Shown: positions 54,283 through 62,155 of the stretch, one piece after another | Position numbering within the stretch: the first letter of the stretch is position 1 | How the letters are laid out: every line of letters starts with the position of its first letter | From: an uncultured Chryseobacterium sp. | GTDB taxonomy: Bacteria > Bacteroidota > Bacteroidia > Flavobacteriales > Weeksellaceae | Assembly: GCA_913778085.1 (NCBI GenBank) | Contig: CAJYXJ010000040.1 | Span: forward strand, 62,001-126,000 | DNA: 64,000 nt | Reading direction: 5' to 3' | Program-made: the position numbers and the translations under genes | The notes under the pieces: generated by a model | Told to the model about the DNA's origin: nothing | What the model saw: only the letters and a program-made list of their open reading frames with translations | Database searches by the model: none

Positions 54283-54537
54283 ATCATTATTTAATCAAAA
54301 AGAAGGTCCGGTTTTTGAAGCCTGATGAAATTTCGTCTGATAATTTTCAATCTTAAAAAGTTTTAATTCCAATGTAATTAAATTCAGTCTCTATTCACAA
54401 AGGATTTTAATCCGGTGATATCGGTAAGAAAAAATGAAGCAACCACAAGTATTTTGTTCCTGCCGTTGCTTCATTTACAGCCATTGATCAGGGAGATCTC
54501 CGGTGTCAAAACCTGTAGAAATAAGCATCATTGCACA

Positions 54538-55128
54538 TTAATAATAAATTTTTCGGTTTTCTATTTTCAGCTGATGGTTGTTATGCATCTTTTTTATCGC
54601 TCTGATTACGGTTTCCACCCGAAGACCTGTTAAGTTTGCCAGCTGCTGCCTGGTAAGCGGTACCTGGAAAGAATATTTGCTTCCTGTATTCCCTTTAAGA
54701 CCATCCATTACTGTTTTAATTTTATAGCAGGGATCAGGGGAAGAGATATTGAAAAGCATGATATATTTATTGTACAGCCTGTCCGCCAGACAATGCAACA
54801 TTTTGGTACAGGCTTCTGGGTTTTTTGCCAGAAGATTCAGGAAATCCCTTTTGGGCAGCTTCAGAATCCTGCACCGCGTTTTTGCTGTGGCATTGGCAGG
54901 ATAATATTTATCATTAAAAAGAAAAGATTCTCCAAGGCTCTGGCCGTCAGACAGAATATTCTGAGTAAATTCCTTGCCGTCTTCATGATAATTATTCAGT
55001 TCCACAATGCCGCGGATGATCTGAAAATAAAATTTGGGCAGATTCCCTTCATGAAAAACAGTTTCGTTCATTTCATAAGTTTCATAACTTGCGCCATATG
55101 CTAATAAGACATCTTCATCAATTATCAT
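54538..55128 (-). CDS. Crp/Fnr-family regulator, paralogue 1
   Basis: A 196-residue regulator: N-terminal cNMP-binding-like beta-roll (residues ~10-125) and C-terminal winged helix with LTRQQLANLTGLRVETVIRAIKKM. The Arg that holds cyclic-nucleotide phosphate in CRP (in a GELxLxxxxPRxA-type cassette) is absent (LGESFLFNDKYYPANATA), so the ligand is probably not cAMP. No Fe-S cysteines of FNR type. Its recognition helix is nearly the same as that of paralogue 2 (58128-58724), so both likely read the same box. Half-sites TTATGA (55216) and TCATAA (55250) lie upstream. Confidence 0.93.
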   Translation of the reverse strand: MIIDEDVLLAYGASYETYEMNETVFHEGNLPKFYFQIIRGIVELNNYHEDGKEFTQNILSDGQSLGESFLFNDKYYPANATAKTRCRILKLPKRDFLNLLAKNPEACTKMLHCLADRLYNKYIMLFNISSPDPCYKIKTVMDGLKGNTGSKYSFQVPLTRQQLANLTGLRVETVIRAIKKMHNNHQLKIENRKIYY

Positions 55129-55277
55129 ATAATGAATTTAAATGTTAAATAAATGAATATTTTAGCCTAATTATTTTTAATACACGTACAAATAACAAAC
55201 CATATAAACATATAATTATGACAAAAAATACCACATTTTAGGGAATTAATCATAAATAAATGAAAATGAAGAATTGA

Positions 55278-55323
55278 TTATGACATACATCATAAAATTC
55301 AGACATAATCCTTTATACCTTTG
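55278..55323 (+). promoter_or_regulatory. Crp/Fnr box and -7 element (short-transcript promoter)
   Basis: TTATGA-CATACA-TCATAA (55278-55295) is a perfect dyad with the 6-base spacer of Crp/Fnr sites. TACCTTTG (55316-55323) fits TAnnTTTG. The gap is 20 bases, which puts the dyad centre near -42, the class II activator position. The same geometry occurs at 58777-58822 and 60886-60931. Confidence 0.7.
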
Positions 55324-55328
55324 AGATA

Positions 55329-55394
55329 CATCCTTATTCAATTTTTGCACTTATTCTCACTTTAGCCCCTCCTTTCCGCGAGGGGCTTTTATTT
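55329..55394 (+). ncRNA. Candidate small RNA under a Crp/Fnr box
   Basis: From the predicted start (~6 bases after the TACCTTTG element) to the T run at 55390-55394 the transcript would be about 65 nt, with no ORF. It has a pyrimidine-rich single-stranded 5' part (TTATTCAATTTTTGCACTTATTCTC) and ends in a terminator hairpin. A separate promoter for the downstream genes lies beyond it, so it is either an sRNA or an attenuated leader. Confidence 0.4.
55364..55394 (+). terminator. Terminator inside the regulatory region
   Basis: AGCCCCTC (55364-55371) pairs with GAGGGGCT (55380-55387), loop CTTTCCGC, followed by TTTATTT. It separates the upstream promoter from the lipoprotein gene. Confidence 0.85.
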
Positions 55395-55402
55395 CGTGAA
55401 TA

Positions 55403-55448
55403 TTGTGACCCCGTCATAAAACTTTATAATTATTCATTATTAAGTTTG
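55403..55448 (+). promoter_or_regulatory. Promoter of the lipoprotein-cyanophycinase operon with variant box
   Basis: TAAGTTTG (55441-55448) fits TAnnTTTG and is 23 bases before the ATG. TTGTGA-N5-TCATAA (55403-55419) resembles the Crp/Fnr box but with a 5-base spacer, ending 21 bases from the -7 element. It may be a weaker site for the same regulators, or chance. Confidence 0.45.
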
Positions 55449-55471
55449 AGGCAGTCAAATCATTTCATATC

Positions 55472-55672
55472 ATGAAAAAAACCATACTAACAGCATTCCT
55501 GCTGTATACTTTAGCGGCATGTACAAAATCTGAAACCCAGTATACGGAGCAGCAAAACAAAAGAGAAACGGTAAACAACAAAGAATCCGACACCATCCGG
55601 ACCCTGAACGAAGTTTCCGACACGGCTGCTACAGAACAGCACCCTAATAAGCTAAAGACCGATAACGATTAA
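55472..55672 (+). CDS. Short lipoprotein
   Basis: A 66-residue protein with signal peptide and lipobox (LLYTLAAC, Cys ~17). The mature part is hydrophilic and probably disordered (ETQYTEQQNKRETVNN, then EHPNKLKTDND type). No family recognised. The stop is only 15 bases before the first cyanophycinase-like gene, so it is the first gene of that operon. Confidence 0.7.
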   Translation: MKKTILTAFLLYTLAACTKSETQYTEQQNKRETVNNKESDTIRTLNEVSDTAATEQHPNKLKTDND

Positions 55673-55687
55673 ATTGCCGTTTTATTT

Positions 55688-56515
55688 ATGACCCCACAAG
55701 GCAGATTAATTATTATTGGCGGCAATGCGGCAGCTACTCACGAAACAGATCAGGAAATTCCGAAAACATCGTTCCCGGCTTTTGAAATTTTCGGCTTGCT
55801 GCATGATCAGAAAAACGATCGTATCGAAATCATAACGGCATCTTCCGATATGGATGAGCAGACTTCCGCAAAGTATTCGGCGGCATTGCAGCCGCAGGGA
55901 TATACCAACTTCGGTTTTATCCACCTTAAAAACAACCGGGAAGATTATCACCCCCGCATCCTGGCGGCAAAGATTGTTTTCTTTATTGACGACACCCTGA
56001 ACCACTGTGAAACCTTAAAAAATTCATCGCTTACAAAACTGATCTATAAAAAATACCTGCTTGAGGAGGAATTTACAATTGTGGGCATCAATACGGGAGG
56101 TATGTTTATTTCCGGTCAGTTCCTGAACGAAAAGGAGATCCATCCGGGTTTAGGGTTCATTAATAATTGTATCATCTATACCAAATTCAGGCACGGAAGG
56201 CGGTTTAAAAACCTGGTAAAAGCCGTTATTTCTCATCGTGAGTGCCTCGGAATCGGACTGAATGAAGGGATGGCCCTGGTAATCGAAAAAGGATACAAGG
56301 CACAATGCATCAGAAACAGCTTTATGATTGTTGTAAATGCCAAAAACGTAAGAAGAAAAAAACCGAGAAAGGGATTCTCCGTCTATGCAAAAAACCTGAA
56401 AGGGCATATCCTGACCGCCGGTTCTGCACTTAACCTGATTAGCGGGGATCTGATTAAGGAAATGCCATCCGATTACAATTTAAATTTCACCACAGAAATA
56501 CCAGACAATAATTAA
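55688..56515 (+). CDS. Cyanophycinase-like pseudoenzyme (peptidase S51 fold)
   Basis: A 275-residue homologue of the following gene. The fold is conserved (GRLIIIGGNAA at the N terminus, LGFINNCIIYTKFRHGRRFKNLVKAV), but the catalytic serine motif (GTSAGAM in active members) reads GINTGGMF (about residue 135). The FFTGGDQ loop is FFIDDTL, and DTHF has become YTKF. It is therefore unlikely to hydrolyse anything and may bind a ligand or form a hetero-oligomer with its neighbour. The ORF is intact, so it is kept under selection. Ends 11 bases before the active copy. Confidence 0.85.
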   Translation: MTPQGRLIIIGGNAAATHETDQEIPKTSFPAFEIFGLLHDQKNDRIEIITASSDMDEQTSAKYSAALQPQGYTNFGFIHLKNNREDYHPRILAAKIVFFIDDTLNHCETLKNSSLTKLIYKKYLLEEEFTIVGINTGGMFISGQFLNEKEIHPGLGFINNCIIYTKFRHGRRFKNLVKAVISHRECLGIGLNEGMALVIEKGYKAQCIRNSFMIVVNAKNVRRKKPRKGFSVYAKNLKGHILTAGSALNLISGDLIKEMPSDYNLNFTTEIPDNN

Positions 56516-56526
56516 AAATAGAAACT

Positions 56527-57375
56527 ATGATACCGAAAGGACGGCTGCTGATTATCGGCGGTAAAGAAAACAAAGGCGAAGACCACTCCGAAATGGAGAA
56601 AGAAAACAATAATTTCTCTCCCAAGGAAATCCTGAAGTTGCTGGCAGAATCCAAAGACGACCCCATCGAGGTGATTACCACAGCAAGCTCCGAGCCGGAA
56701 GACATGAGGAAAACCTACACGAAAGTATTTAATGAAATCGGCTACACGAATTTTGATTTCCTTGATATCTGTGACGACCAGGTACACTCGGATTTTCATC
56801 TCAAACGGGTGGAAGCTGCCAAAACGGTATTTTTCACCGGAGGCGACCAGAGCAAAATATGCGGAAGTCTGAACCAGTCTGTCCTTACCGATCTCCTGAA
56901 AAGAAAATATCAGGAAGAAGACGGCTTTATGATCGCGGGAACCAGTGCGGGTGCCATGTGTATGCCTAAAATAGTTATTCTGGAAGCGGTAAACGGTGAG
57001 GCCATGCTAGAACATGATATCGAACTGGATACAGGCCTTGGATTTATAGAAAGCTGCATTATCGATACGCACTTTATTCACCGGGCAAGGTTTGGGAGGC
57101 TTGCGCATGCCGTAATTCTTCATCAGGAATGCTGGGGAATTGGTTTAGGGGAAGATACGGCCTTATTGATCGAAGAAGGCTGTAAGGCAACCTGCCGCGG
57201 GTCCGGAATGGCCTGGATTATCAATGCCCGGAATATCGGGCAGACCAATACCCGTACCGTAAAAAAAGGAGCTCCAATTTATGCCGAAAACCTGAAAATC
57301 CATATCCTGACCGACAACTGTAAGATCGATTTCAATTATGATACGTTTGAAGGTACAGGCTCCGGTAAACAATAA
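56527..57375 (+). CDS. Cyanophycinase-like peptidase S51
   Basis: A 282-residue member of the S51 family (cyanophycinase, dipeptidase E). Motifs: FFTGGDQSKI, nucleophile elbow AGTSAGAMCM (Ser about residue 140), LGFIESCIIDTHFIHRARFGRLAHAVI and GIGLGEDTALLIEEG. Cyanophycinase cuts beta-Asp-Arg polymer into dipeptides. Whether this cell makes cyanophycin is unknown: no cphA synthetase or isoaspartyl peptidase is in the window. Another acidic-peptide substrate is possible. Second of a tandem pair; followed by a terminator shared with the opposite strand. Confidence 0.9.
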   Translation: MIPKGRLLIIGGKENKGEDHSEMEKENNNFSPKEILKLLAESKDDPIEVITTASSEPEDMRKTYTKVFNEIGYTNFDFLDICDDQVHSDFHLKRVEAAKTVFFTGGDQSKICGSLNQSVLTDLLKRKYQEEDGFMIAGTSAGAMCMPKIVILEAVNGEAMLEHDIELDTGLGFIESCIIDTHFIHRARFGRLAHAVILHQECWGIGLGEDTALLIEEGCKATCRGSGMAWIINARNIGQTNTRTVKKGAPIYAENLKIHILTDNCKIDFNYDTFEGTGSGKQ

Positions 57376-57378
57376 CGA

Positions 57379-57408
57379 AAAAGGAAACCCAAAATCAGGT
57401 TTCCTTTT
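57379..57408. terminator. Bidirectional terminator between convergent genes
   Basis: AAAAGGAAACC and GGTTTCCTTTT form an 11-bp stem around CAAAATCA, with T on both strands. It lies between the cyanophycinase-like gene and the ferritin-like gene. Confidence 0.85.
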
Positions 57409-57429
57409 ATTATGATGATTGCGTTCTTT

Positions 57430-58041
57430 CTATAATGCCTTGCTGTTAAGGTTGGTATCAGCCACTTTCGTTAAAAGCTCATCGCACCTTTTTTCTTCTT
57501 CCAATGTACTTAGAAGGAGCTTCAGGCAATCGTCTTCTTTCAATACTTTTGCAAAAGCAGCTAATGTTCCGTAGGTGGCGATTTCATAATGCTCTACTTT
57601 TTGTGCAGCGGCAATAATTCCGGCATCCCTTACCGTTCCCGGCTCCGTTTCTTCCATGATGCTTTTGCCTTCATCCAATAGTCCCTGCATGGCATCACAT
57701 TTCTTGGCCTGCGCTTTTTTACCTAAGGCTTTGAAACATGCTTCAAGCCTGTCGATCTGTTCTTCCGTTTCAGTAATATGATTGTCGATTGCTTTTTTAA
57801 GCTTTTCGTCAGTTGCATTCTTCATCATTGTAGGTAATGCCTTTAATAAGGCTTTCTCTGCCCAGTATATATCTTTAAGAGAATCTTCAAAGAGGTCTTT
57901 CAGTTCTTTTGCTGCATCTTTCTTTGCCGGAGTTTTTGTAGCAGAAGTTTTAGCTGTTGCTTTAGCCGGTGACTTGGATGTCGCTTTGGTAGCCGTGGAT
58001 TTCTTGGCAGGTGCTTTCTTAGTGGCTGTTTTGGTTTCCAT
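57430..58041 (-). CDS. YciE/YciF-type ferritin-like protein with histone-like tail
   Basis: A 203-residue protein. The first ~42 residues are an AKP/KTA-rich tail (TKKAPAKKSTATK, then KATAKTSATKTPAKK) like eukaryotic histone H1 or HU extensions, likely to bind DNA. Residues ~45-195 are the YciE/YciF (DUF892) four-helix ferritin-like domain with the usual Glu/His pattern (YWAEKALLKALPTM, AQKVEHYEIATYGTL, LEEEKRCDELL). Family members are linked to stress. The tail is a plausible means of protecting DNA. Gene alone; its promoter is not clear. Confidence 0.9.
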   Translation of the reverse strand: METKTATKKAPAKKSTATKATSKSPAKATAKTSATKTPAKKDAAKELKDLFEDSLKDIYWAEKALLKALPTMMKNATDEKLKKAIDNHITETEEQIDRLEACFKALGKKAQAKKCDAMQGLLDEGKSIMEETEPGTVRDAGIIAAAQKVEHYEIATYGTLAAFAKVLKEDDCLKLLLSTLEEEKRCDELLTKVADTNLNSKAL

Positions 58042-58127
58042 AATATAAATATTTTAGTGTTTGGTTTTGGTAAATCTGCAACTATAAGACCATTTTTACC
58101 TGAACTGCCGAACTGTGGTATCTAAAA

Positions 58128-58724
58128 CTAAACATACACCTTCCTGTTGATGATTTTCAGATAATTCTCTTTTTCCAGCTGTTTTACGGCCCTTACCACC
58201 GTTTCTACCCTCAGGGCGGTAATGGAAGCGATCTGCTGCCGGGTAAGCGGCACCTCATAGGAAAACTTGCTCTGGTCTTCCCTGAAACTTTTATGGTAAT
58301 CAAGCATTCCTTTGATCCTTGTCACCGGACGCAATGAGGAATTGTTTTCCAGCATAATGTATTTGTAATACAGCCTTTCAGATAAAAACTTATTGATGTC
58401 CCTTGAAATCTGCGGATTCTCGTCAAGCAGTTTAATAAAGTCGCTTTTCGGAAGCTTAAGAATGGTGCATTCTTCAAACGTTATCGCATTTACAGGATAC
58501 GTCTGATCGATGAATAAAAGAAGCTCGCAGACACTGAGCCCTGGTTCCAGAATAGCCAGAATAAGCTCTTTGCCTTCCTCATTGTAATGGTTCAGCTTTA
58601 TTCTCCCTTTAACCACCTGATAATAGTATTTGGGAGTTTCACCTTCCCGGAAAATAATATGAGAACGCTGAAGCGTTTCCTGCTCGGCTCCGTAAGCTTG
58701 TAAAAGTTCTTCTGATATCAGCAT
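58128..58724 (-). CDS. Crp/Fnr-family regulator, paralogue 2
   Basis: A 198-residue regulator of the same type as paralogue 1: cNMP-like beta-roll then winged helix (LTRQQIASITALRVETVVRAVKQL). The phosphate-binding Arg is missing here too (VCELLLFIDQTYPVNAIT). ATG at 58724 is used; the further 17 codons upstream (MKIPASMSRIQ) are not in paralogue 1. A perfect TTATGA-N6-TCATAA box lies 80-98 bases upstream, and its geometry points to this gene, suggesting autoregulation. Confidence 0.93.
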   Translation of the reverse strand: MLISEELLQAYGAEQETLQRSHIIFREGETPKYYYQVVKGRIKLNHYNEEGKELILAILEPGLSVCELLLFIDQTYPVNAITFEECTILKLPKSDFIKLLDENPQISRDINKFLSERLYYKYIMLENNSSLRPVTRIKGMLDYHKSFREDQSKFSYEVPLTRQQIASITALRVETVVRAVKQLEKENYLKIINRKVYV

Positions 58725-58776
58725 ATATAAGGGTTTTAAAGATTGGATCCGCGACATTGAAGCCGGAATTTTCAAA

Positions 58777-58822
58777 TAAAATTAGAGGTAAAAAAACGGC
58801 AGTGTTATGATTGAAATCATAA
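58777..58822 (-). promoter_or_regulatory. Crp/Fnr box upstream of Crp/Fnr gene 2
   Basis: TTATGA-TTGAAA-TCATAA (58805-58822) is a perfect dyad. On the - strand TAATTTTA (58784 down to 58777; one mismatch to TAnnTTTG) starts exactly 20 bases after it, the same gap as at 55278. On the + strand a TAATTTG (58848) faces the orphan sdhB-type gene at a less fitting distance. Either or both may be controlled. Confidence 0.6.
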
Positions 58823-58954
58823 AGCAAATTCCTTGCCCTTACGTCCGTAATTTGTCGTATTGCGTAAATTAACTTTATTGTCAGAATATGAGACGGCTCA
58901 TAAAATCATCTGCTTTTTTAACCGTATTTTTAAATCAACCAATCAAAATATGCT

Positions 58955-59723
58955 ATGACTATACGAAAGAATTTAAATCTGACTTTAAAAATCTGGCGGC
59001 AGAAAAAACAGGAAAACAAAAGGGCAGTTTGAAATCTATAAAGTTTCGGATATTTCTACCGATGTTTCTTTCCTGGAAATGCTGGATATTCTCAACGAAC
59101 AACTGATTAGCGAAGACAGGGAGCCGGTGGCCTTCGACCACGACTGCCGGGAAGGCATCTGCGGGATGTGTTCCTTATATATCAATGGCAGAGCCCACGG
59201 CCCGGATACGGGAATTACCACCTGCCAGCTTCACATGCGGATGTTCAGCGATGGGGAAACCATTGTGATCGAACCGTGGCGAAGCGTAGCCTTTCCGGTT
59301 ATCAAAGACCTGATTACCGACCGGAGTACCTTCGACCGGATTATGGCCGCCGGCGGATTTATTTCGATAAACACGTCAGGCAATACACTGGACGCTAATG
59401 CCATCCCGGTGCCTAAAGAAGATGCCGATAAAGCCATGGATGCCTCTTCCTGCATCAGCTGCGGTGCCTGTGTAGCCTGTTGCCCGAACGGGGCAGCCAT
59501 GCTTTTCGTAGGCGCCAAAGTCTCTCATTTTGCCCTGCTTCCGCAAGGAAAGGTAGAAGCCAAAAGAAGGGTGCTGAATATGGTACAGGCGATGGATGAA
59601 GAAGGCTTCGGCAACTGTTCGGTGATCGGCGCCTGCGAAGTGGAATGCCCGAAAAAAATTTCCCTCGACAACATTACGCGGATGAACAGGGAATATATGG
59701 CTGCCTGGCTCGATACGAAGTAA
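58955..59723 (+). pseudogene. sdhB: Orphan succinate dehydrogenase/fumarate reductase Fe-S subunit, frameshifted
   Basis: Read across one frameshift, this is a full-length (~255-residue) SdhB/FrdB. Frame 1: [22 protein letters not shown]. After AAAA at 59018-59021 the frame changes and continues [21 protein letters not shown] to the end, with the [2Fe-2S] cluster ligands ([11 protein letters not shown]), [11 protein letters not shown] and GACEVECPK intact. Deleting one A would restore the protein. No sdhA or sdhC is adjacent, so it is an extra copy or a displaced gene. A translated product could start at a later codon, but would lack the first strands of the ferredoxin domain. Assembly error is possible. 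Confidence 0.85.
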
Positions 59724-60260
59724 AGGATTGCCACAAACGATTCAATATTCGGAAGAAAAGCCTGATGCCACATCAACCTCGGCGAAAAGTTCATAGCCAT
59801 CTCTCCGGAGGATTTTGGTAAGAGTGCGGCTGTTCCGCTGATAGCAATTAAGTAAAAAGTGATCACCTCTCCCGAACACAAGGAAGAGGTAATCTAAAAT
59901 ATCAACTACGAACTATTATTTTGGATCTGATGTTGAAAAAATCATCCGTTTCGGTTATATCTAACCCATCCTATAGATCTGATTAAATTTTTTAACCGCT
60001 TTCTGACCTGCGTATATAAAATATTACCAGTCTTTATTTTTTATCTTTTAAAGAATGAATTTTATTTGTGAAAAGAAGAAAAGCAAATTTATCCTGTTTA
60101 TCATCTATTTTTTATGACACCCATCATACCGGTAGAATTTTACCCTATTTTAAAGCGGTTTATTTGTTGCTGTTTCCTATCGATCCATTTTTTTAATAAA
60201 ACTCCTCAAAACCGAGGAGTTAAAGAAAAGTAAAATGGTCTGAAAAAATTTATAGGTCGT
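59724..60260. other. Intergenic region after the sdhB-type pseudogene
   Basis: No gene with support. One + frame around 59770-59853 reads a protein-like stretch (HINLGEKFIAISPEDFGK, then SAAVPLIAIK, stop) with no start, which may be a gene relic. A hairpin (60200-60221) ends the region. Much of 59900-60180 is A/T-rich and featureless. Confidence 0.35.
60200..60221 (-). terminator. Hairpin after the hypothetical gene at 60261
   Basis: AACTCCTC pairs with GAGGAGTT, loop AAAACC. On the - strand TTTTATTAAAAAA follows. The T run is short, so confidence is moderate. Confidence 0.55.
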
Positions 60261-60863
60261 TTAAAAATCCAGCAGTCCTGCGGCGAGGCTTTTCCAGTGT
60301 ATCTTACTAAATCCGAAAATTCCGCCGATGCCAATGAAGAAATTTCTTATTCTGTCTGAAAAACCGGTATTAAAGTTCGGCCTTTCATTTCTGCCGTAAA
60401 CCCCAACTTTTAATGTGTTGCCTTCTTTTGAGATCAGGAAGTTGGACGTGGCGGCAGCACTGTAAAAATGGGCAATGTTCCCTTGGAATTTGTTCGGTTC
60501 TTTGCAGGGCCTGCACATCATCAGGTATGATTTAACATTGCCGGCGTCTCGGTGTGACAGATTAACGATTTCCACCCAGTCGTAGCCTTTTCCATCACTG
60601 TTTGCGGGGCCGGGGATTTCTATTCTTATCAAATCGCCTTTTTTTGGCACCCGGTCTGCCGGTTTCCCCGAAGAATCGAAATGTCTGAAATCAGCTGATG
60701 CACCTCCTGCATACTCTTTCCATCGATTGATGGAAAAAAAACGCTGTTTGAGAATATCGAATTTCAAATCGATATCTGATTCGGTACACGTCCTGGTACT
60801 TTCACTGTCATGGAATCCGCCTTTCTTCTGAATGGAGACTCCCGGAATCTGCTTCGGCTTCAT
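60261..60863 (-). CDS. Hypothetical protein under a Crp/Fnr box
   Basis: A 200-residue protein with no signal peptide, rich in polar residues and with a Cys pair (MMCRPCKEPNK, ~120) and a Gly/Phe-rich C terminus (FIGIGGIFGFSKIHWKSL). The segment RVPKKGDLIRIEIPGPANSDGKGYDWVEI suggests a beta-rich fold. No family recognised. It has a well-formed promoter: box at 60914-60931 and TAAATTTG at 60886-60893, giving a start site ~17 bases before the ATG. It therefore belongs to the local Crp/Fnr regulon. Confidence 0.7.
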   Translation of the reverse strand: MKPKQIPGVSIQKKGGFHDSESTRTCTESDIDLKFDILKQRFFSINRWKEYAGGASADFRHFDSSGKPADRVPKKGDLIRIEIPGPANSDGKGYDWVEIVNLSHRDAGNVKSYLMMCRPCKEPNKFQGNIAHFYSAAATSNFLISKEGNTLKVGVYGRNERPNFNTGFSDRIRNFFIGIGGIFGFSKIHWKSLAAGLLDF

Positions 60864-61446
60864 AATCTTTTCGTTGTGATGCTTACAAATTTAGAATCCG
60901 TTATCGGAAATTATTATGAGCAGGATCACAATAAGCGGTATAAATCTGCCTTCTTGATTGTAATCATAATTTTTCCCGGTATTAATCACGAATTTCGGGT
61001 TACGGATTCACAAAAAACTTTCCGTCAGCCTAATCTATCATGGAAGGAATGAAACATTTATGAGTATGAAAAAGATTTTTTCTGACAGGCTTGCCCATCA
61101 GAGCGTGCTTTTCGGTAAATGCCGGAGCTTTTACCGGCAGGACTATTCCGGTCGAGATCGGAGCCTATCCTTTATGTTTAGATAAAGATCCGGGCGCCGA
61201 CTATTATCCCTGTTATTTTTATGTTTTGTTATTAAAAAATTTCGAGCATAGAGATTTCAATTTATTCAGATGAAACGATTCATCGGATTATGATGAAGAT
61301 AAAGCTTATCAACAGGTTAAAACGATGGCCGTTTTGCCCGCAGGAACTTATTGAGAATCGGATGAACATTAATAACCACATACCCCGGAGAATGTTTTAT
61401 AAAAAGCATTTCCCGGATTTTTACGTATCAACCAAAAATATTAATT
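60864..61446. other. Intergenic region between hypothetical gene and cinA-type gene
   Basis: Apart from the Crp/Fnr box and promoter (60886-60931), it contains TTGAT-N4-ATCAT at 60954-60967, one base off the classical FNR box, without a -7 element at the right distance. Several short open frames in 61060-61440 overlap each other and show no family; none is supported. Confidence 0.4.
60886..60931 (-). promoter_or_regulatory. Crp/Fnr box and -7 element of the hypothetical gene
   Basis: TTATGA-GCAGGA-TCACAA (60914-60931) has one mismatch to a perfect dyad. On the - strand TAAATTTG (60893 down to 60886) fits TAnnTTTG and begins 20 bases after it. Same geometry as 55278-55323. Points to the gene at 60261-60863. 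Confidence 0.7.
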
Positions 61447-61962
61447 ATGAACCTCCAGAAAGATTTATTAGAATGTATCGGAAACTATCTGCAGGCATCC
61501 GAGGAAACCGTTGCTACCGCAGAAAGCGTTACTGCGGGGTTTTTACAGTTTTCTTTTTCACAGGTCAAGGATGCTTCACAAATTTTTAAAGGCGGAATCA
61601 CCGTCTATACCCTGGAAGAAAAAGTGAAGTTTTTGCAGGTCGACGAAAAGGAAGCAGAAGCCTGTGACTGTGTTTCGCAGAATATTTCAGATACCATGGC
61701 CCTGAATGTGGCAAAATCATTCGGTACCGACTGGGGATTGGCTATTACTGGCTATGCCACCCCGGTTGAGGAATCGGATTTTAAACTCTTTGCCTATTTC
61801 TCGTTCGCTTATCAGGGAGAAGTTGTCCTCTCCCGGAAAATGGATCTGAACTCCAGAAAAGACTCCATCAGCGCCCAGCTGTGCTACAGCGAATTTATGC
61901 TGGAATGCTTTAAGGTGGAAATAGAAAACCAGCAGATCCGGAAAGAAGAAGAGGAATTTTAA
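61447..61962 (+). CDS. CinA C-terminal domain (nicotinamide-nucleotide amidase) family
   Basis: A 171-residue cytoplasmic protein of the PncC/CinA_C family, which hydrolyses nicotinamide mononucleotide to nicotinate mononucleotide. Seen: VATAESVTAGFLQFSFSQV (the usual AES-x-TGG motif with Val and Ala variants), IFKGGITVYTLEEKVKFLQV, and AKSFGTDWGLAITGYATPV. The unusual residues in the first motif leave the activity open. Followed ~190 bases later by the dehydrogenase gene; not clearly an operon. Confidence 0.85.
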   Translation: MNLQKDLLECIGNYLQASEETVATAESVTAGFLQFSFSQVKDASQIFKGGITVYTLEEKVKFLQVDEKEAEACDCVSQNISDTMALNVAKSFGTDWGLAITGYATPVEESDFKLFAYFSFAYQGEVVLSRKMDLNSRKDSISAQLCYSEFMLECFKVEIENQQIRKEEEEF

Positions 61963-62155
61963 ACTAAATCAGGTTATCAGGCCGGGAAAGAGCCCGCATA
62001 CCGGAAGTTTTTCAGCAACGTTTATCAGCGGGACTGATTAAATCAATTTCTTATTTTGAATCCTCACCTTTATTAATCTATTAATAAATTAAATATCAGA
62101 CAATTATATTAAAAAAATACTAACAAACCATTATCAACACCACAAAATATTATCT

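Follow-up and report, generated by a model that had tools for sequence, protein, structure and literature searches.

A palindromic box at a fixed distance from the -7 element and its probable link to an expanded Crp/Fnr family and to short RNAs in Chryseobacterium

A family of sister Crp/Fnr regulators very probably binds a palindromic DNA site, TTATGA-N6-TCAYAA. The site recurs across Chryseobacterium genomes and seems to turn on the genes of these regulators as well as stress genes and short RNAs. In the reading preferred here, to which we assign a probability of roughly 0.8 on the sequence evidence, the boxes would be the sites of an expanded subfamily with ten close paralogues in this genome, working by class II-type activation in an autoregulatory circuit whose output is rich in short RNAs.

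Boxes and Promoter Elements

The window, that is, the whole 64,000-nucleotide stretch of DNA that was analyzed, contains the three boxes that an earlier note had placed at 55278, 58805, and 60914, each exactly 20 nt from a -7 element of the form TAnnTTTG as that note had claimed, with TACCTTTG and TAAATTTG perfect and TAATTTTA carrying one mismatch. Because two of these boxes are palindromic, the three account for five strand matches in the window, against 0.02 expected by chance. The elements of the boxes at 58805 and 60914 are on the minus strand and point toward minus-strand genes. A variant with a 5-base spacer, 21 nt from its element, was also located correctly; its spacer is 6 bases in 7/7 relatives, so that the copy in the window is one base off the usual site. 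Although every box of the earlier set is present, the set was incomplete, as two more were found, GTATGATGGGTGTCATAA on the minus strand and ATATGAGACGGCTCATAA on the plus strand. The features are as follows.

54538..55128, minus strand: Crp/Fnr paralogue P1
55278..55295, plus strand: box TTATGACATACATCATAA, 20 nt from its -7 element; kept in 7/7 relatives, in one of them with one mismatch
55316..55323, plus strand: -7 element TACCTTTG of the short-RNA promoter
55324..55395, plus strand: short RNA of family B (alignment, family search), about 65-70 nt by its predicted ends, no ATG
55403..55419, plus strand: box variant TTGTGA-N5-TCATAA, 21 nt from TAAGTTTG
55441..55448, plus strand: -7 element TAAGTTTG of the lipoprotein-cyanophycinase operon
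55472..55672, plus strand: ORF of 66 aa for a small lipoprotein-like product, classed as such by eye
55688..56515, plus strand: cyanophycinase-like protein, below the model cut-off
56527..57375, plus strand: cyanophycinase, TIGR02069, above cut-off
58128..58724, minus strand: Crp/Fnr paralogue P2, ATG at 58724, putatively autoregulated
58777..58784, minus strand: -7 element TAATTTTA of the P2 promoter, one mismatch; its final A recurs among homologues
58805..58822, minus strand: box of the P2 promoter, 20 nt from TAATTTTA
58886..58903, plus strand: box ATATGAGACGGCTCATAA upstream of the SdhB-like gene, 21 nt from TATTTTTA; kept in 7/7 relatives
58925..58932, plus strand: element TATTTTTA of the SdhB-like promoter, one mismatch
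59079..59723, plus strand: SdhB-like iron-sulfur subunit of the PRK07570 family; in the window its frame is broken close to the 5' end
60084..60091, minus strand: element TAAATTTG of the fifth promoter
60112..60129, minus strand: box GTATGATGGGTGTCATAA, 20 nt from TAAATTTG
60261..60863, minus strand: uncharacterized protein, 200 aa, with a terminator-like hairpin at 60200-60221
60886..60893, minus strand: element TAAATTTG, promoter of the 60261-60863 gene
60914..60931, minus strand: box TTGTGATCCTGCTCATAA, 20 nt from TAAATTTG

The predicted control by the box of the short RNA, one paralogue, the uncharacterized protein, and the lipoprotein-cyanophycinase operon, as proposed earlier, draws support from conservation. 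The box is kept at the short-RNA, lipoprotein-cyanophycinase, and SdhB-like promoters in the seven relatives, while the box at 60914 is kept in the 3 of 7 whose compared stretch held the gene, which encodes a protein with no match in Pfam or NCBIfam. The promoter at 60112, possibly that of an RNA, is followed at about 142 nt by a weak terminator, with another hairpin beyond; among the relatives a box at the matching place was found only in G033, there with a one-mismatch element, and boxes near this place in other relatives do not demonstrably correspond to it. Small proteins similar to the lipoprotein-like ORF follow the box elsewhere too. The DUF892 gene of the window (57430-58041) has no box in front of it; at another locus (L128) a DUF892 gene sits downstream of a box promoter.

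Spacing across the Genus and the Proposed Mechanism

The description of the regulon as local did not survive wider scanning, as the sites span the genome and the genus; the expected excess of boxes upstream of -7 elements did, both genus-wide and order-wide. In this genome the 18-mer pattern occurs at 12 places, against none for a reversed control, and the shorter pattern TATGAN6TCAYA (61 box orientations) is followed 15-26 nt downstream by eight perfect TAnnTTTG elements, six of them at 20 and two at 21 nt. Over 60 genomes of the genus, 92 of the 150 matches listed are spaced at 20 (54) or 21 nt (38) and none of those 150 at 14-19 or 22-28 nt, the pattern read backwards giving three matches; these 92 promoters, drawn from 38 genomes and with orthologues among them, are not independent. 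At the positions left free by the pattern, position 7 of the box is Y in 85 of the 92, and position 12 is never T. A second peak at 6 nt (44 of the 150 listed) was set apart, as it reflects near-constant sequence before one gene, mostly with A at position 7; this genome's own copy of that site is at C7:11175, with a 125-aa ORF.

The box, its rigid spacing, its conservation, and the paralogues are read directly from the DNA, and from them we infer binding by the paralogues, activation, and the start sites. A paralogue dimer on the box would contact RNA polymerase in the manner of a class II activator, most likely the mechanism in view of this geometry. Measured to the first base of TAnnTTTG, the center of the box is 29.5 or 30.5 nt upstream and would fall at about -40 to -41 if the element is centered on -7, the start position being a projection, so that the inner half-site would occupy the place of a -33 element. 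The position of the box fits such a replacement. In the range 15-25 nt upstream of the element, no TTG occurs in the genus box promoters (0/92) or in family A promoters when box-driven (0/18 versus 5/12 box-less); this absence was downgraded as proof of the replacement, because the fixed half-site fills most of that range and largely forces the result. A -33 motif is described as unidentifiable in RNA-seq data from Flavobacterium johnsoniae in the available text of that report (PMC7366714). The circuit would regulate its own regulator genes. Further predicted targets are small lipoproteins and stress-type proteins (KGG, cyanophycinase, respiratory and redox proteins), and an unusually large share of the output would consist of short RNAs with an intrinsic terminator about 50-110 nt past the -7 element. 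Such targets suggest low oxygen or stationary-phase stress as the signal.

The same proteins might instead bind the box and repress, the site overlapping the polymerase footprint so that promoters stay off until a signal arrives. The site does lie within the region that polymerase would cover, the elements at the P2 and SdhB-like promoters are imperfect, and Crp/Fnr proteins are generally capable of repression. BT4338 of Bacteroides both activates and represses, according to the available portion of PMC6989115. Repression, however, could do without so strict a spacing of 20 or 21 nt, and a half-site where the -33 element would be fits dependence on an activator, which makes this reading unlikely.

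Predicted Short-RNA Output

The output that stands out is RNA. Downstream of 41 of the 92 site promoters a strong terminator is found within 120 nt, compared with 0-1 of 92 in shuffled sequence and 20 of 217 elements without a site. Many box promoters therefore probably yield short transcripts. When the RNA in the window was modeled with promoter sequence left out, the model recovered 19 loci in 18 of the 60 genomes, every one behind a box that has 0-2 mismatches and the 20- or 21-nt spacing; four of the 19 are members not used in building the model, again all behind a box, and are not independent. The terminators and RNA families are read from the sequence, and from them we infer RNA function. 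In the window, the terminator hairpin (55364-55387) is followed by a T-rich stretch, and terminator pairs covary in the family B alignment. The 55324-55395 transcript could be read as an attenuated leader of the lipoprotein-cyanophycinase operon, which it precedes on the same strand and with a terminator at its end. Past that terminator, however, the operon is preceded by a box and -7 element of its own, in the window and in 7/7 relatives, and more family B members occur at other loci, for example near family A RNA genes, so that a leader is quite improbable and a free-standing RNA is preferred.

Several RNA families without obvious shared sequence lie behind the one box. A search of 18 loci against Rfam returned only three tRNAs at the gathering threshold, and in positions 54400 to 62000 of the window the single match up to E 5 was anti-hemB (E 1.8; 17.7 bits against a gathering threshold of 49.5). 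The family A hairpin and T run are present in 53 of 61 copies by a script criterion; among the other eight, L005, L175, L218, L227, and L236 bear a hairpin by eye, and L220, L233, and L261, which do not, may be coding coincidences. The complement of the family A core, CACAAATGATG, occurs at 11 sites, eight of which are the RNA copies themselves, leaving three against two for the control, with no enrichment for a target; a literature search with the core gave only an unrelated match. We give about even odds to a broader proposal, that Chryseobacterium and close genera possess a dedicated RNA arm of the Crp/Fnr network, in which sister regulators act through one box on several unrelated, terminator-ended, trans-acting sRNA families. 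One of these would belong to a multi-copy, family-wide clan with an invariant TTCATCATTTGTGTTTTT module and interchangeable terminators, the box standing over some copies only and the others using box-less TAnnTTTG promoters.

The Crp/Fnr Paralogues and Their Probable Link to the Box

The two Crp/Fnr proteins reported earlier are genuine, both matching PF00027 (cNMP_binding) and PF13545 (HTH_Crp_2) above cut-off, and their recognition helices, LRVETVIRAIKKM and LRVETVVRAVKQL, are indeed nearly equal. As the binders they are too short a list, for the genome has ten close paralogues with similar helices, all sharing E-T-x-x-R, any of which might bind a given site. The cAMP pocket of CRP includes R82 and S83; CRP supplies the best relatives of P2 among solved structures, and its QERSAWV aligns with QTYPVNA in P2, replacing R-S by Y-P. 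Assignment to cAMP-activated CRP fails on this pocket pair and on score (56 bits, where the NCBIfam model for CRP has its cut-off at 266). Assignment to FNR fails on score as well, with 30 bits where the Fnr cut-off is 228. The hallmark of FNR is an N-terminal cysteine cluster carrying a 4Fe-4S center. In the alignment of the ten paralogues no cysteine is invariant and no N-terminal cysteine cluster is seen, which excludes a cluster of the FNR type.

The box is upstream of 17 of 31 P2 homologues, whereas none of the 31 control stretches has it; among the 17, at least L324 has no box except that of the divergent SdhB-like gene, and in the other 14 homologues no box within one mismatch was found. 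Outside family f1, 25 of the 28 genomes that encode a close homologue have a box promoter, compared with 24 of the 219 that lack the homologue. Within f1, 3 of 38 genomes with paralogues have no box promoter, 6 of 11 without a close homologue still have one, and the number of sites follows that of paralogues with a rank correlation of 0.76 (n = 49; 0.49 after genome size), or 0.48 within the genus (n = 29; 0.43 after genome size), values that genome size lowers and that still include shared ancestry. In genus g11 the box promoter begins exactly 13 nt past the homologue's stop codon in 11 of the 16 genomes having the homologue. Similar sites may be read by other regulators as well. The box promoters without a close paralogue, 24/219 outside f1 and 6/11 within, could even point to a palindrome-binding owner outside the Crp/Fnr paralogues, for which the local Crp genes would be merely two targets, but this is very improbable in view of the boxes beside or after paralogue genes and of the TGA-N6-TCA core paired with an E-x-x-x-R helix (aligned to E. 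coli CRP), in which the contacts of E and R typify the Crp/Fnr mode.

Comparison with Known Systems

At class II promoters of E. coli, the CRP or FNR site is near -41.5. The boxes described here share with these systems the palindromic TGA-N6-TCA core, the E and R of the helix, and a fixed spacing that would put the site at about -41 if the element is centered on -7, and differ in being paired with the Bacteroidota -7 element TAnnTTTG; the proteins differ from CRP in the Y-P that replaces R-S and from FNR in that none of the ten has its type of cysteine cluster. FnrS is an FNR-activated small RNA of E. coli, and the likeness lies in a Crp/Fnr-family protein putatively activating a short terminated RNA, whereas here several families lacking an obvious common sequence lie behind one box. 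FopS-type paralogous sRNAs occur in Bacteroides, and family A resembles them, by description only, as a multi-copy sRNA family within Bacteroidota.

Closer in phylogeny is BT4338 (MalR/Cur), a Crp-family master regulator of carbohydrate use in Bacteroides thetaiotaomicron, with the consensus wwwTATGTTnTAnAACATAwww in the available text (PMC6989115). Compared by site consensus, the TATG-N8-CATA frame and the outer half-sites agree, but the inner bases are TT..AA there and A..T here (TATGA-N6-TCATA), so that the boxes do not qualify as BT4338/Cur sites; neither a paralogue set nor a short-RNA output was seen for BT4338 in that text. A predicted CRP/FNR meta-regulon of an anammox community, which used the Bacteroides MalR matrix and included one Flavobacteriales genome, is likewise an in silico regulon of a flavobacterial Crp/Fnr homologue, and differs in that the string TTATGA is absent from its main text, as far as that was available (PMC8510549). 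In the accessible part of a study of Riemerella CrpR1, the terms "binding site" and "Chryseobacterium" are absent (PMC13277301). Among the matches listed in the literature outside subscription papers, no title describes the box and none describes a system of post-transcriptional control for Chryseobacterium and related organisms. Such control would, provided that the short RNAs are real, come with a regulator, its box, and more than one RNA family, and the sharply defined activator geometry offers a way to learn how Crp/Fnr proteins cooperate with the sigma factor. The unexpected part of the regulon is its probable short-RNA output.

Box promoters at the locus

The TTATGA-N6-TCAYAA palindromes that the earlier note had reported at 55278, 58805 and 60914 are present, with five strand matches against 0.02 expected, and in each case a TAnnTTTG-like element does sit at a distance of exactly 20 nt. 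For the latter two the elements are on the minus strand, ahead of minus-strand genes. The variant box at 55403, with its 5-base spacer, is also real; the site has the normal 6-base spacer in all seven relatives across which the region was compared. Two further boxes had been missed. The genes and additional boxes are as follows.

54538-55128, minus strand: P1, a Crp/Fnr paralogue
58128-58724, minus strand: P2, a second Crp/Fnr paralogue, behind the 58805 box
58886-58903: additional box, 21 nt from TATTTTTA, ahead of the SdhB-like gene
59079-59723, plus strand: SdhB-like gene
60112-60129: additional box, 20 nt from TAAATTTG
60261-60863, minus strand: gene behind the 60914 box

The boxes of the short RNA (55324-55395), of the lipoprotein-cyanophycinase genes and of the SdhB-like gene are retained in 7/7 relatives, the element of the last ending in A, not G, in every case. 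The three relatives whose fetched stretch included the 60261-60863 gene all retain its box, and the P2 box keeps its 20-nt spacing in four of seven, with 19 nt in one further. Among 31 P2 homologues from named genomes, 17 have a box with at most one mismatch within 220 bp upstream, whereas the same length of sequence 3' of the homologues has such a box in 0/31; in at least one of the 17 (locus L324) the only qualifying box belongs to the divergent SdhB-like gene. The single element mismatch noted earlier recurs, as TAnnTTTA lies 19-20 nt from the best box in 7 of these 17.

In the window, the SdhB-like frame is broken close to the 5' end; it is open in six relatives, a difference that may reflect an assembly error or a genuine change. 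At 55688-57375 lies a tandem pair of cyanophycinase-type genes, only the second of which exceeds the model cut-off.

Spacing across the genome and genus

In the window's own genome (4.63 Mb, 82 contigs) the full box occurs at 12 places and the reversed control, the pattern read backwards, at none; the shorter TATGAN6TCAYA gives 29 forward and 32 reverse matches (control 6 and 6). By its homologues in named organisms, the window falls within or next to Chryseobacterium. A perfect TAnnTTTG lies 15-26 nt downstream of eight of the 61 box orientations of the shorter pattern, at 20 nt in six and 21 nt in two. When spacings of 5-35 nt were permitted over 60 genomes of the genus, the 150 matches listed, from a larger total, divided into 54 with a spacing of 20 nt, 38 with 21 nt, 44 with 6 nt and 14 with other values, and the ranges 14-19 and 22-28 nt were empty; the reversed pattern gave three matches over the same genomes. 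Such fixation at two adjacent values is what contact between a bound protein and polymerase would require. Repression rather than activation by the box-bound protein is accordingly improbable, since a repressor would accept a wider range of spacing.

The 92 promoters with 20- or 21-nt spacing come from 38 genomes and include orthologues. Box position 7, although unspecified by the pattern, is T or C in 85 of them, and position 12 is T in none; this constraint at unspecified positions lengthens the palindrome.

The 6-nt class looks like one conserved locus and was not counted towards the regulon. Its example in the window's genome (L063, G000:C7:11175) is a conserved TTATGAnnnnnnTCATAAGTTCTTTATTTTTG immediately 5' of a 125-aa ORF, with 6-nt spacing and outside the regulon; sequence of this type makes up 44 of the 150 genus matches listed.

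Crp/Fnr paralogues

Counting P2, 13 proteins of the genome match it at E <= 0.001, ten close and three distant, the nine other close ones at 35-49% identity. All ten close paralogues carry E-T-x-x-R in the recognition helix, the E preceded by V, I or L, compared with R in CRP. Identity of P2 with CRP is ruled out by replaced pocket residues in the alignment to CRP, and of the paralogues with FNR by the lack of a cysteine cluster. Boxes stand upstream of P2, of P1 (shared with the divergent RNA), of three paralogues on contig C14 and, on contig C20, of a same-strand gene run made up of a lipoprotein-like ORF, a pair of paralogues and a KGG protein.

In a search of 296 Flavobacteriales genomes, where the reversed control gave 6 matches, box promoters tend to accompany close P2 homologues (E <= 1e-20). 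Outside the family f1, they occur in 25/28 genomes with such a homologue versus 24/219 without; inside f1, in 35/38 versus 6/11. Box count tracks paralogue count, with shared ancestry not removed, at Spearman 0.76 in f1 (n=49) and 0.48 inside the genus (n=29); allowing for genome size, the partial correlations are 0.49 and 0.43. In genus g11, a box promoter starts exactly 13 nt past the homologue's stop codon in 11/16 homologue-bearing genomes (L237-L247); in L237, the only one whose downstream genes were Pfam-scanned, the promoter is followed by genes for a small protein that matches no Pfam family and for a Bac_globin protein. Activation of the box promoters by the Crp/Fnr paralogues is the best reading of these sequence patterns (probability roughly 0.8), and it is very doubtful that some other regulator reads the box.

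A TATGACATTTATCACA box (L061, G000:C1:9123) has on one side a 793-aa P-type ATPase, CcoI/FixI-like by eye, and on the other a distant Crp/Fnr protein; it lacks the fixed element and possibly belongs to a separate Fnr-type circuit.

Probable short RNA output

A strong intrinsic terminator lies within 120 nt past the element at 41/92 box promoters, compared with 1, 0 and 1 of 92 in dinucleotide-shuffled controls and 20/217 box-less TAnnTTTG elements in the same stretches. Within the window, 55278 is the one promoter of six with a strong terminator; that of 60112 is weak. The window RNA contains no ATG; its alignment with 14 relatives has a near-constant TTTTGCA core and two-sided changes in five of eight terminator pairs. 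A covariance model built on this RNA family without the promoter found 19 loci in 18/60 genus genomes, each preceded by a box with 0-2 mismatches whose distance to an element (0-1 mismatch) is 20 or 21 nt. Fifteen went into the model, mostly located via their boxes, which leaves four others (in G023, G030, G054 and G056) as the independent portion, box-preceded in 4/4; these are homologues, in which promoter and RNA may have been inherited jointly.

Other RNA families have no obvious sequence in common with the window RNA by eye, and the loci tested gave no match at threshold to Rfam small-RNA families. One of them, family A, carries an invariant 18-nt module, TTCATCATTTGTGTTTTT, ahead of interchangeable terminators. 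The module is present in 45/49 f1 genomes and in 0/247 of the remaining Flavobacteriales, against 2 matches for the reversed control; among the matches listed, a genome has at most 10 copies.

L230 and L257-L263: the eight family A copies of the window's genome, none inside the window
L207-L229 and L231-L236: further copies

The TTCATCATTTGTGTTTTT-bearing sequences form a putative multi-copy RNA family. A hairpin and T run follow 53 of 61 distinct copies in the loci covered by script criterion and 58 by eye, and a box lies no more than 150 nt upstream of 19 copies.

Candidate protein targets

A script picked a downstream ORF for 88/92 promoters; many of those behind RNA promoters are short, and probably without meaning. 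The largest cluster is of Crp paralogues (16; 10 of the 12 shown start 440-790 nt downstream), followed by small lipoprotein-like (11), cyanophycinase-type (4) and KGG-like (3) proteins. Pfam confirmed KGG, DUF892, COX1 and SDR domains among representatives, and alpha-amylase-like and alcohol-dehydrogenase-like proteins were named by eye. Together these targets suggest stress or oxygen-limited physiology.

Mechanism and relation to known systems

In B. fragilis and B. thetaiotaomicron, TAnnTTTG is described as centred on -7 (PMC7366714). With the same centring, the box would be centred at about -40 to -41, its inner half-site falling in the -33 region; there is more certainty on where the box lies than on what it replaces, because a -33 motif was not identified in F. 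johnsoniae according to the same paper. Among the open-access papers listed, no title concerns the box, Chryseobacterium Crp/Fnr sites or these RNAs. The BT4338 site of Bacteroides (PMC6989115) has the same half-site frame, TATG-N8-CATA, but its inner bases differ from those of the box. The system is predicted to be a form of class II Crp/Fnr control, with an unusually large RNA output.
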